From: Pseudoxanthomonas kalamensis DSM 18571
Lineage (GTDB): Bacteria; Pseudomonadota; Gammaproteobacteria; Xanthomonadales; Xanthomonadaceae
DNA: 64,000 nucleotides
Direction: 5' to 3'
NCBI RefSeq assembly: GCF_010211745.1
Contig: NZ_PDWQ01000003.1
Span: 186,001-250,000, forward strand
Shown here piece by piece: positions 18,778 to 22,930 of this stretch; positions within the stretch are counted from its first letter, which is position 1; every line of letters begins with the position of its first letter. Below the pieces are notes generated by a model, which saw only the letters and a program-made list of their open reading frames with translations, made no database searches and was not told the DNA's origin. Made by a program: the position numbers and the translations under genes.

Positions 18778-20031
18778 ATGAGCGACATCAAGACCCTGGC
18801 ACTGGCCTGCCGCGATGCCGCGCGCGGTGTCGCCCAATTGGAGACCGACGCCAAGAACGCGATGCTGCGGGCGATGGCGCAGGCCTTGCTGGACGACCTG
18901 CCGGGCATCCTCGACGCCAATACGCAGGACATGGCGGCGGCTGCGGAAAAGGGCATCGGCGAAGCGATGCTGGACCGGCTGCGGCTGGACGAAGCGCGGG
19001 TGCAGGCGATTGCCGCGGCGCTGCGCGAGGTCGCCGCGCTGCCCGATCCGGTCGGCCAGGTGACCCGCAGCGAAACCCGCCCCAACGGCATCAAGGTCGA
19101 GCGCGTGCGTACCCCGCTGGGAGTCATCGCGATGATCTACGAGGCACGCCCCAACGTCACCGCCGACGCCGCGGCGCTGTGCCTGAAGGCCGGCAACGGG
19201 GTGATCCTGCGCGGCGGCAGCGAGGCGATCCATTCCAACCGCGCCATTGCCGCCGCACTGAAGCGGGCGATGGCAGCGGCCGGCATCGACCCTGCCGCGC
19301 TGACCCTGGTCGAGGACCTGCGCCGCGAAACCATCCTCGAACTGATCCAGCTCAACGACATCGTCGACCTGGCAATTCCGCGCGGCGGCGAAGGCCTGAT
19401 CCGGTTCGTCGCCGAACACGCGCGGGTGCCGGTCATCAAGCACTACAAGGGTGTCTGCCACCAGTACGTTGATGCCGGTGCCGATATCGAACTGGCCGTG
19501 CGGCTGGCGGTGGACGGCAAAGCGGCGCGGCCAAGCGCCTGCAATTCGCTGGAAACCCTGCTGGTGCACGCCGACATTGCAGAAGCCTTCCTGCCGCGCG
19601 CCGGCGAGGCGCTGGCCGCACGCGGGGTCGAACTGCGCGGCGACGCACGCGCCTGCGCGCTGCTGCCGATGGCCGGGCCAGCCAGCGAGGACGACTACGC
19701 GGCCGAATACCTGGACCTGATCCTGGCCGTGCGCGTGGTCGATTCGCTGGACCAGGCCATCGCCCACATCCTGCGCTACGGCTCCGAGCACACCGAGGTC
19801 ATCGTCACCCGCGACGAAGCGCATGCGCAGCGCTTCATCGACGCGTTGCGTTCGGCGGTGGTGATGGTCAACGCGTCCTCGCGCTTTTCCGACGGCGGCG
19901 AACTGGGGCTGGGCGCGGAGATCGGCATCTCGACCACCCGCCTGCATGCCTACGGTCCGATGGGGCTGGAAGCGCTGACCATCGAGCGCTACGTGGTGCG
20001 CGGGGCAGGGCAGACCCGCAACATTCCCTGA
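18778..20031 (+). CDS. proA: Gamma-glutamyl phosphate reductase
   Basis: ProA reduces gamma-glutamyl phosphate to glutamate semialdehyde, the second proline step. The 417-residue product is an aldehyde-dehydrogenase-fold enzyme. It shows [20 protein letters not shown] and [20 protein letters not shown] near 103-130, and [15 protein letters not shown] near 221-235. The latter is where the catalytic thiol region lies, with NSLETLLVH after it. C-terminal signatures are [20 protein letters not shown] and [17 protein letters not shown]. It is the last gene of the arginine/proline operon. The last 60 coding bases and the stop codon are repeated intact 185 bp downstream. Confidence 0.97.
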
Positions 20032-20072
20032 GCGGACTCGTCCGGGCAGCGCCGGTACCGGAATAGCCGGAA

Positions 20073-20155
20073 TAGGTTGGGGTGAGCATGCGAACCCCAA
20101 CATCCTGACCCATCAATGCGGGCCTGTTGGGGTTCACTCCGTTCACCCCAACCTA
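20073..20155 (+). repeat. 83-bp palindromic intergenic repeat, copy 1
   Basis: The unit opens TAGGTTGGGGTGAGC and closes with its complement GTTCACCCCAACCTA. Two nested hairpins are present: GGGGT(...)ACCCC at 20079-20099 and a matching one at 20128-20149. It has the form of a REP/BIME-like element. A similar GGTTGGGGTGAGC palindrome is familiar from intergenic regions of this family, but this cannot be checked here. Confidence 0.8.
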
Positions 20156-20265
20156 TGCGCTGACCATCGAGCGCTACGTGGTGCGCGGGGCAGGGCAGAC
20201 CCGCAACATTCCCTGAGCGGCTCGCCCAGGCAGTGCCGGGACCGGGAAAACCGGAATAGCCGGAA

Positions 20266-20348
20266 TAGGTTGGGGTGAGCTTGCGAACCCCAACACCCTG
20301 ATCCATCAATGCGGGCCTGTTGGGGTTCACTCCGTTCACCCCAACCTA
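20266..20348 (+). repeat. 83-bp palindromic intergenic repeat, copy 2
   Basis: Second copy of the element, in the same orientation and equal in length, with three or four substitutions relative to copy 1. It was carried along in the proA 3' duplication. Confidence 0.8.
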
Positions 20349-20377: not shown

Positions 20378-20590
20378 TCAGCCGAAGGCGGCGACCTTGC
20401 GCAGCTGGCCGTTGTCGTCCTTCCGGACCACGGCGGTCGGCAGGCCCTGGGTCAGGTGTCGAGCATCGGCCATCAGCGTGGCGATTTCCTCGGCCTTGGC
20501 GCGCTCGGGAAACCACAGCACCGGCTTGCCGTTGTCGAATAGTTGCCAGCCGCCATACGACGGTTCCAGCTTGAGCGTCGATCGGTCCAT
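20378..20590 (-). CDS. Small conserved-looking hypothetical protein
   Basis: The 70-residue product begins MDRSTLKLEPSYGGWQLFDN and continues GKPVLWFPERAKAEEIATLM. The pattern of a short beta region (W-x-L-F-D-N-G-K-P-V) followed by an amphipathic helix suggests a small cytoplasmic alpha/beta fold, reminiscent of DUF2188-type proteins, but the family is not certain. Base composition matches the GC-rich core genome, unlike the cassettes that follow. No good ribosome-binding site is visible. It is transcribed toward the repeats after proA. No function can be proposed. Confidence 0.6.
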   Translation of the reverse strand: MDRSTLKLEPSYGGWQLFDNGKPVLWFPERAKAEEIATLMADARHLTQGLPTAVVRKDDNGQLRKVAAFG

Positions 20591-20814
20591 GCCGGCAGCA
20601 TGCGCCCCCGCGCCCGCCCGGTCTGTCGGACGGAAGCGGATCGTAGTGTAGGAAAAGTCTGACGGGGGGGCGTCAGGAAGTAGCCTTGCAGGCGAGGCGA
20701 TGCGGGATGCGCCAAGAGGGGATGCTGGAATTGTTGTCTACAGATGTTATATACATCTTTGTGCCGCTATTCGGCGGTCTAAATGGCGTTAGGCGCATTC
20801 AATCAGGAGTTCTC

Positions 20815-21333
20815 GTGAATCACAGGCTTTTGTTCGCTTTTTTTCTAACTTTCTCAGGCATTGCCAATGCGCAGGTGTTCACTTATGACAATGAGGGTGA
20901 AGTATTTGGCGCAGCAATGATGTCCCTTCATACAAAAGCACCACTTGTGGACAAGGTCATGTCCTATTGTGCAAATGAGGGAGCCATTGATGACCAGAAG
21001 GCCGTTGATACAACTAATGCATGGAAGAAACGAAATGCTTCATACTTAGCGCTCGCACCAATTCTACTTGAGGAGATGCATCAGACTGCAGTACGTGAAA
21101 AGCAGGTTGATGCATGGCATGTCTTTATAGAATCCACAATGCCTAAACAGATTGAGCTTGCGTCTTCAATTCTCGTTGATCAGCTGAAAGCCCTTCCTGA
21201 GATCAGTCAGAGAAGAACAATGTGCATGAATCTTTCCAATGCAATTGATAGTGGAAGACTCGATCATGCAAACGAAGATCCAGCGATTCAAACGTATCTA
21301 AACAAGCGATTGTTGAGTAAGACGACAAAGTAG
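20815..21333 (+). CDS. Cassette 1: secreted hypothetical protein
   Basis: The gene starts at GTG (20815), six bases after the ribosome-binding site AGGAG (20804-20808), and encodes 172 residues. A signal peptide (MNHRLLFAFFLTFSGIANA, cleavage after residue 19) is followed by a mostly helical mature domain with two cysteines, C52 and C137, that could pair in the periplasm. Codon use is AT-rich and unlike the surrounding core genes, indicating lateral origin. An in-frame ATG at 20686 lies outside the cassette boundary and is rejected. No known family is recognised. Being promoterless in a cassette, it probably depends on an upstream or internal promoter. Confidence 0.8.
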   Translation: MNHRLLFAFFLTFSGIANAQVFTYDNEGEVFGAAMMSLHTKAPLVDKVMSYCANEGAIDDQKAVDTTNAWKKRNASYLALAPILLEEMHQTAVREKQVDAWHVFIESTMPKQIELASSILVDQLKALPEISQRRTMCMNLSNAIDSGRLDHANEDPAIQTYLNKRLLSKTTK

Positions 21334-21351
21334 TTTCTTCACGTCCAATGC

Positions 21352-21457
21352 GCCTAACAATTCGTTCAAGCCGAGCCCGCTTCGCGGTCTCGGCGGATCG
21401 GCTATCATCAAGTGTCGCTGGTACCGCTCGCGGGCCGGCTTAACTCAGGCGTTTAGG
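21352..21457 (+). other. attC recombination site 1
   Basis: R'' is GCCTAAC (21352-21358), the L'' region contains TTCAAGCCGA, L' contains TCGGCT/CCGGCTTAAC on the far side, and the right core is GTTTAGG (21451-21457), one T longer than the usual GTTAGG. The imperfect central palindrome CCCGCTTCGCGG sits at the hairpin tip. The site is about 106 nt and most resembles the AATTCGTTCAAGCC type. Confidence 0.8.
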
Positions 21458-21855
21458 TGCGCAGATTGTTCTCAAGGATTCTTGACGTACCAATCTACTA
21501 CCGCAGTCCTGACAGGTTGGGCGGCAATGCTGGCTGGCGTTGGTTCTACTTCAATGAGACTGTCGGTTTCATTTGGCTTGAGTCTCGGCCTGATGCCATA
21601 CGCGCGGAATACTGTTTCATTCGGCAACGCCCTTCTCGCGTTCTAGTCCGCCGGGAGTTCGAGCCTCGTGGCAAGCTGTTCCAAGTATCATGCCGCGGCC
21701 TCACGAATGCTGAGATTTTTGGTCGGCTCTTGGCGGCCTTCGGCGATTTCCAAAGCAGTGGGTTCTTGCAGTCGTTCTGGATAGATCTTGGTGCGTTCAA
21801 GGTTGCCGGGCCAAGCATAGACTGGCAGCATCACGTTCATGGCAAGCGCACCTAA
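21457..21855 (+). CDS. Cassette 2: hypothetical protein filling its cassette
   Basis: The open frame encodes 132 residues. It begins at a GTG (21457) inside the attC core and ends with a TAA (21853-21855) inside the R'' core of the next attC, so almost the whole 452-bp cassette is coding. No Shine-Dalgarno sequence is visible. A TTG at 21466 is the only nearby alternative start, and there is no internal Met near the N-terminus. The protein is soluble, basic and rich in Arg, Phe and Trp (for example WRWFYFNETVGFIWLESRPD), with no signal peptide or transmembrane helix. No family is recognised. Expression may depend on read-through from cassette 1. Confidence 0.65.
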   Translation: MRRLFSRILDVPIYYRSPDRLGGNAGWRWFYFNETVGFIWLESRPDAIRAEYCFIRQRPSRVLVRREFEPRGKLFQVSCRGLTNAEIFGRLLAAFGDFQSSGFLQSFWIDLGAFKVAGPSIDWQHHVHGKRT

Positions 21856-21909
21856 CAATTCATTCAAGCCGAACCTGCTCCGCGTGTCGACTTGATTCAG
21901 GCGTTAGGC
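21850..21909 (+). other. attC recombination site 2
   Basis: A compact 60-nt site: R'' ACCTAAC (21850-21856), L'' CAAGCCGA, a short tip around CTGCTCCGCG, L' TCGACTTGA, and right core GTTAGGC (21903-21909) with the cut after G21903. All four boxes are recognisable and the size is the minimum typical for attC. Confidence 0.88.
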
Positions 21910-21929
21910 CACATGGTTAAGGAGAGCAG

Positions 21930-22178
21930 ATGAATTTGTGGATTCTGTTCTTCGTGCTGCTTGCCTATGCAGTCATTTGCCAGCTTGGTGTTGTTATGCA
22001 ACTTATAAAACATCAAGTGTCGGTGCCCTGGCTCACTTTGGCGGTTCCCCTGCATTTGTTTCAGCGATGCCAAGCGCATCGCACCAAGCTGGGAACTGCA
22101 CTGCAATGGTGGAGCCTCAGCGCAGATTTCGCGGTTTTGACCTGCTTTGTCTTGGTTCTTGCTGGTTGGCTGCGGTAG
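21930..22178 (+). CDS. Cassette 3: small two-helix membrane protein
   Basis: The 82-residue product starts at ATG 21930, preceded by AAGGAGAG (21919-21926), an excellent ribosome-binding site. Two transmembrane segments are evident: about 4-23 (WILFFVLLAYAVICQLGVVM) and about 62-80 (SADFAVLTCFVLVLAGWL), linked by a basic loop containing QRCQAHRTK. Hairpin-type membrane proteins of this size are common in integron cassettes, but their roles are mostly unknown. Composition is AT-richer than the core genome. The attC that should follow is broken after GGCCTAA at 22189-22195, so this cassette can no longer be excised normally. Confidence 0.75.
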   Translation: MNLWILFFVLLAYAVICQLGVVMQLIKHQVSVPWLTLAVPLHLFQRCQAHRTKLGTALQWWSLSADFAVLTCFVLVLAGWLR

Positions 22179-22188
22179 AAGCTTGTAA

Positions 22189-22195
22189 GGCCTAA
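22189..22195 (+). other. Truncated attC remnant closing the cassette array
   Basis: GGCCTAA is complementary to the TTAGGCC start of cassette 3 and is the expected left core of its attC. The next bases (TCCGTAGGG) leave the attC pattern, so the array was truncated here. The sequence continues into GC-rich repeats. Confidence 0.65.
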
Positions 22196-22225
22196 TCCGT
22201 AGGGTGGCACCTGCGCAGAGTCGTA

Positions 22226-22244
22226 GGGCGGGCTCAAGCCCGCC
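22226..22244 (+). repeat. GC-rich REP-like hairpin
   Basis: GGCGGGCT and AGCCCGCC form an 8-bp perfect stem around a two-base centre, preceded by GTAG. The GTAG-plus-palindrome form is that of a REP element. It abuts the broken end of the cassette array. Confidence 0.6.
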
Positions 22245-22282
22245 TCCCCCGGCTTGCGGAGCTTTCCGCTCGGCGTTCCGGG

Positions 22283-22628
22283 AAAACATGCCGGCCCGCC
22301 GGCCTCGACAGGCGGCCTTCCGCCCGAATTTGTCCGTGCGCCCGCTTCCGAGGCCCGCGCGCCGGCTTATTTGCCCGGCCGGCGGGCCGAATTTCCCCGC
22401 GCTCGGCCCTCGGAAGCCCGTCGGCCGAGCAAAAAGCTCCGTCCGCCGAGCAAATAGGCTCGTCTGCCGAGGAAAAAGGCTCGCCAGCCGAGCAAATAGG
22501 CCCGCTGGCCGAGCAAATAGGTCCGTCCACCGAGCAAATAGGCCCGCGCACGGAGCAAATAAGCCAGCCGGCCGAGCTTTTTTCCCCGCCCGCGGACAAA
22601 TTATCTCCGCCGTTGGACAAATTTTGTC
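22283..22628 (+). repeat. 21-bp periodic array of A/T tracts in GC-rich DNA
   Basis: Ten consecutive units of exactly 21 bp are anchored at 22427, 22448, 22469, 22490, 22511, 22532, 22553, 22574, 22595 and 22616. Each has a GAGCAAATAGG-like core followed by a variable GC-rich half. Degenerate units extend the same phase leftward: A/T tracts near 22285, 22329, 22370 and 22391 are in register. Because 21 is divisible by three and the units lack stops, several frames on both strands stay open and read as heptad repeats (such as LFARPAG). None has a convincing start or family match, so this is treated as repeat DNA. Together with its flanks it fills the 658 bp between cassette 3 and tRNA-Pro. Confidence 0.9.

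Positions 22629-22853: not shown

Positions 22854-22930
<77 letters not shown>

Follow-up and report, generated by a model that had tools for sequence, protein, structure and literature searches.

An integrase-less cluster of three integron gene cassettes between proA and a tRNA-Pro gene in Pseudoxanthomonas kalamensis

The recombination of circular gene cassettes at attC sites is the known mechanism of integrons. Loot et al. (2024) are said to have described a further route, attG insertion, in which the integron integrase IntI joins cassettes to the chromosome at places other than attI and attC. PMC12444791 and PMC12901181 mention attG insertion (the latter also delta-attI), and PMC10127599 treats off-target IntI. 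CALINs, as described with IntegronFinder 2.0, carry at least two attC sites in one orientation with no nearby intI; they are proposed to be degraded integrons, and attI is poorly described (PMC9024848). In Xanthomonas, intI lies at ilvD in nearly all genomes, and about half of the genomes carry dispersed CALINs away from the main integron (PMC12444791). The attC sites of Pseudoxanthomonas are treated in PMC11089894, and PMC11023631 is a further related paper. Among the titles and abstract openings by which we judged, we found no paper describing attI relics in Pseudoxanthomonas.

The cluster reported here, from P. kalamensis DSM 18571, resembles the CALINs of PMC9024848 in the number and orientation of its attC sites and in having no nearby intI, but its terminal attC is cut, its left edge is attI-like, and a complete-looking integron exists elsewhere in the genome. 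Like the CALINs of Xanthomonas, it is a dispersed cluster apart from the main integron; unlike the arrangement described in PMC12444791, intI here adjoins comEC, and a promoter-like stretch plus attI is kept in 22 of 74 clusters of relatives. With attG insertions it would share the joining of cassettes by IntI away from attI and attC, although its site resembles attI more closely than a bare core does.

The window, a stretch of 64,000 nucleotides from a 3.03-Mb draft genome in 160 contigs, holds at 20789-22196 three integron gene cassettes that run in one direction and have no adjacent integrase. Such a cluster is an ordinary, well-known kind of feature for the family. It occupies an interval between proA and a tRNA-Pro gene that contains three plus-strand genes in AT-richer DNA, with the following features (basis in parentheses).

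18778-20031: proA, left of the cluster
20763..20794, plus strand: attI-like left boundary with a CCGC/GCGG stem, a TCTAA box and the core GTTAGGC, crossover behind the first G (models R2 and R3; stem register)
20789..21451, plus strand: cassette 1, whose start TTAGGCGCATT pairs with the start of its own attC (crossovers read from the sequence)
20815..21333, plus strand: cassette 1 gene, 172 amino acids (open reading frame; start codon picked by eye)
21352..21458, plus strand: attC1, long type, about 107 bases, R' core with one extra T (R1 match; pattern)
21452..21903, plus strand: cassette 2 (attC1 and attC2 cores; same cassette attC-bounded in another genus)
21457..21855, plus strand: cassette 2 gene, 132 amino acids, start codon uncertain (78% identical in genome G112)
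21850..21909, plus strand: attC2, short type, complete, 60 bases (R1 match)
21904..22196, plus strand: cassette 3, right end broken (TTAGGCC/GGCCTAA pairing; homologue attC-bounded in a third genus)
21930..22178, plus strand: cassette 3 gene, 82 amino acids, two hydrophobic stretches (open reading frame; hydropathy; 57% identical in genome G151)
22190..22196, plus strand: R'' remnant of attC3, seven bases (sequence; rest of the site missing)
22223..22244, plus strand: REP-like palindrome beyond the broken right end (exact match)
22854-22930, minus strand: tRNA-Pro gene, right of the cluster

An earlier note on this DNA had described AT-richer genes in one orientation between core sites. These features are present in the sequence, and the dip in GC content is confirmed: it ranges from 0.43 to 0.55 inside the cluster versus 0.60 to 0.75 in the flanks shown (300-base windows). 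Crossover points lie between 20788 and 20789, 21451 and 21452, and 21903 and 21904; the first and third have the integron core GTTAGG, with the crossover behind the initial G, and the second has GTTTAGG, with one extra T. As had been claimed, every cassette start is also complementary to the opening bases of that cassette's attC: TTAGGCGCATT of cassette 1 to AATGCGCCTAA, TTAGGTGCGC of cassette 2 to GCGCACCTAA (save the extra T behind the crossover G), and TTAGGCC of cassette 3 to GGCCTAA of the attC3 remnant.

To recognize attC sites, we used a covariance model (R1) made from 17 attC sites of the genome's main integron, none of them from the window. R1 matched attC2 with 64.5 bits (E 2e-15) and attC1 with 23.1 bits (E 0.001), in the latter case aligning, as a short-type model, only with 21352-21418. 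It gave no match at 22190-22196, because only the R'' half of the third site is left there. When up to three mismatches are allowed, the pattern CCTAACAATTCNTTCAAGCCGA has two matches in the window (21353 and 21851), and 100 shuffles yielded 0.00 on average. Two attC sites are thus called by covariance model and by pattern alike, in line with what the earlier note had predicted. For the core GCGTTAGGC, with one mismatch allowed, the window has 18 matches against 19.25 expected, and the core alone is not diagnostic. An Rfam scan at gathering thresholds reported only the sRNA Xoo5 and three tRNAs.

We searched 297 genomes of the family, including that of P. kalamensis itself, and found the cassette 2 and cassette 3 proteins in two genomes each. 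The single homologue of cassette 2 among the 296 other genomes is 78% identical and comes from another genus (G112), and that of cassette 3 is 57% identical and comes from a further genus (G151). Both sit in arrays with attC on both sides, and the opening bases of cassette 2 are nearly identical in the two genera that carry it. Bounded by attC in two other genera, cassettes 2 and 3 are, judged by their sequence context, mobile cassettes. Their differences at codon positions 1, 2 and 3 (25, 13 and 54 for cassette 2 versus G112; 32, 20 and 47 for cassette 3 versus G151) fit what would be expected of translated genes. The relatives of the cassette 1 protein are 23 to 26% identical and occur in three genomes of the same genus and in three Pseudoxanthomonas records, of which two coincide with the loci of genus-mates. 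No attC was found near any of these relatives; since none of them is a cassette, they offer no ground from which the mobility of cassette 1 might be inferred.

These results leave scarcely any probability for the reading that the three are ordinary, vertically inherited genes flanked by chance core sites. Core sites by themselves do occur at chance level, but such a reading would have to account for the attC model and pattern results and for cassettes that are present in 2 of 297 genomes each and attC-bounded in other genera. Genes that are syntenic and vertically inherited, with no attC-like flanks, were what the earlier note would have taken as grounds against its claim; cassettes 2 and 3 do not behave in this way, and the case is weaker for cassette 1.

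The cassette products match none of the defence families searched. None of the three, nor a small protein encoded at 20378-20590, reaches a Pfam cut-off or has an NCBIfam or PADLOC match at E values up to 1, and the hint that genes of this class may include anti-phage systems finds no support here. PHROGs gave only weak matches for proteins of the cassette region (best E 0.022). The cassette 1 protein has a signal-peptide-like start, as read by eye, and is predicted to be all-helical (AlphaFold2 mean pLDDT 81.8, with the first 23 residues low); the predicted structure has no telling fold match.

Within the genus, attC matches at E ≤ 1e-4 are found in 37 of 38 genomes, that of P. kalamensis included. 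We scanned up to 1.5 kb behind proA in 29 loci of relatives, out of 37 other genus genomes with a ProA match (loci L043 and L061 are shorter than 1.5 kb), and found no attC; the sole match has 14.2 bits (E 0.72). The model scores long attC sites weakly: in the same search the P. kalamensis locus, truncated ahead of attC2, yielded 17.4 bits for attC1, so that a lone long attC could escape the scan. By ARAGORN, the same tRNA-Pro follows proA at no more than about 45 bp in the relatives L048 and L062 and at no more than 1.5 kb in L052 and L054, and BLAST finds partial tRNA matches behind proA in L047 and L055; no tRNA-Pro is seen in the stretch compared at the remaining proA loci. The nearest ProA among the relatives is 81% identical and no close relative has an empty site; with the closest ProA at only this identity, the DNA from proA to the cassettes gives no boundary alignment. 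Between proA and the cassettes, the small minus-strand gene at 20378-20590 encodes a protein with a sub-threshold DUF2188 match and no match in the compared loci. Directly downstream of proA, 20031-20340 contains stretches repeated about 193 bp apart, including a copy of the proA end, and parts of these repeats recur in the loci of two relatives (L050 and L053).

The earlier note saw no intI in the window and advised looking elsewhere in the genome. There is indeed none beside the cluster and no trace of one at the locus, which therefore does not have the intI adjacent to attI of a complete integron. The only match in the genome above the integron-integrase cut-off (TIGR02249, 480 bits) is an open frame without stops on contig C149, not the contig of the window. 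This intI ends three bases ahead of comEC, a DNA-uptake gene that runs in the same direction (L006 3282-6644). By pattern, the main array has 37 attC sites, five of them between intI and the start of C149 and the other 32 on contig C94, at its end; the two contig ends probably join into one array. Beyond the main array and the window, the genome has nine further dispersed attC loci (E ≤ 0.1).

Taken together, the attC sites called by model and the integrase found elsewhere make it very probable that the cluster is a CALIN of three cassettes between proA and tRNA-Pro, although the right junction is lost. The earlier note had proposed either a CALIN or a fragment shed from a chromosomal integron. 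The second option, in which a rearrangement released the cassettes from the large array, is possible but unlikely. Cluster and main integron do have the same type of attC, and the last attC of the main array lies about 258 kb from the cluster on the same contig; on the other side, the left edge resembles attI rather than attC, and nothing clearly marks the cluster as derived from the main array, because none of its three proteins matches that array (or the other dispersed loci) at E ≤ 0.01.

What precedes the first cassette bears on how the cluster arose. In the main integron and in platforms with an integrase, a conserved stretch occupies this position, with TTGAC, ACAAT-like bases, a CCCC/GGGG stem, TCTA, six to seven bases and the crossover G in this order; the TTGAC and ACAAT-like bases may represent the cassette promoter. 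From platforms with an integrase or integrase remnants, we made the models R2 (46 positions, 11 sources) and R3 (78 positions). The best place for R2 in the 64 kb is 20763-20794 (14.7 bits; E 0.33, a weak match), and R3 has the same best place in the window (12.2 bits; E 0.17, also weak), which coincides exactly with the predicted crossover between 20788 and 20789. R3 matches there only with model positions 48-78, its promoter part being unmatched, and a scan of 20590-22300 found no promoter-like site (TTGAC...ACAAT). A negative control, which covered R2, produced no match with E under 8 in 91 kb from 22 of the 29 proA loci of relatives. In a position-weight test resting on six attI sequences, in which three other boundaries of this genome (L078, L079 and L072) score as background, the window boundary ranked highest among 1,356 GTT sites, a set that contains the boundary itself. 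Among 11 platform sequences, the attI stem shows weak covariation, with one two-sided pair change and 43 of 500 shuffles as high. Overall, the left edge of the cluster resembles the attI of the genus, though with weak model scores. An early test, in which the stem ahead of the crossover was present at 10 of 20 integrase-less and 6 of 7 platform boundaries, against 7.2% of 1,356 GTT sites, was dropped because its list was partly eye-picked; rule-based ends and the models superseded it.

We applied R3 to clusters of other genus members. Ninety cluster starts were collected, and 88 remained after L143 and L168 were left out because the contig ended near attC. tblastn found intI in 14; in 22 of the other 74 (17, 5 and 0 by batch), R3 recognized, at E < 0.01, both attI and the promoter-like stretch, and in 52 it did not. 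For this count, the absence of intI refers to tblastn with one IntI over the fetched stretch, the position of attI at the cassette start is taken from the model match and not from locus-by-locus inspection, and the 74 clusters, which come from related genomes and sometimes several from one genome, are not independent. Among these 22, L164 shows a weak intI trace of 38 residues. Since these 22 retain both elements, about three in ten of the integrase-less clusters of relatives look like decayed integrons. Four integrase-less clusters of the relative G050 have only the promoter-plus-attI stretch in common with others, and three clusters of that genome with integrase remnants share 365-484 bp. 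Rule-based ends were accepted at 23 of 58 loci in a first set, which included the window and the nine other loci of P. kalamensis, and at 17 of 40 in a second; five of the 23 (L082, L083, L094, L117 and L123) look spurious.

The window cluster itself may likewise be the remains of a second platform from which intI and the cassette promoter have gone, leaving a worn attI and three cassettes. R2 and R3 agree on its left edge, the stem and TCTAA box stand in attI register, and the 22 clusters of relatives provide parallels, as does a dispersed locus of the same genome (C73:196 kb) that has attI, a 368-bp stretch of platform at 90% identity and a truncated intI. Such a decayed integron has a probability somewhat below one half, given that neither an intI remnant nor a promoter is found at the locus and that the attI match is weak and spans 32 bp. 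An attG-type insertion, in which the genome's own IntI joined the cassettes at a chromosomal site that resembles attI by chance, is a credible alternative that also falls short of an even chance; the two readings stand about level. The genome has the uninterrupted IntI that insertion calls for, only C73:196 kb among the nine other dispersed loci fits the attI models at E < 1, and two of these loci begin at or just past the stop codons of dnaG and recR (their left ends were read by eye and failed the rule for cluster ends). The stem, box and spacing shared with attI nevertheless exceed a bare GTT core with its crossover behind the G, and the target's right half is lost, so that the insertion site cannot be compared.

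Under either reading, the cassettes would have arrived as circles and been joined at the attI-like left site by an integron integrase, presumably IntI. The cluster now seems largely frozen, because the attC1 core has changed and attC3 is cut; only attC2 looks whole. The contribution of this analysis is the attI models as a tool for sorting CALINs by origin, with which orphan arrays can be asked singly whether they are decayed integrons or off-site insertions. The origin of CALINs thereby becomes testable in this genus, the window cluster being one undecided case. It is also conceivable, if rather doubtful, that the genus keeps or spreads a compact promoter-plus-attI unit (about 66-93 bp) at many chromosomal sites without integrase and that the window cluster is one such dock, old and worn; a genome would then have several satellite docks for cassettes, all of which a single IntI would serve in trans.

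Further arrangements were seen at individual loci. One cassette cluster (L114, in genome G043) has two promoter-plus-attI stretches, at 973-1051 and 1902-1980, about 930 bp apart. The palindrome at 22223-22244 has 32 matches in the genome at up to three mismatches, both strands counted. At L074 and L076, as in the window, broken terminal attC sites have REP-like palindromes a short way to their right, an arrangement that may be coincidental. At L078 (C116:43.3 kb), a single cassette is flanked by two inverted REP-like palindromes, as read by eye.
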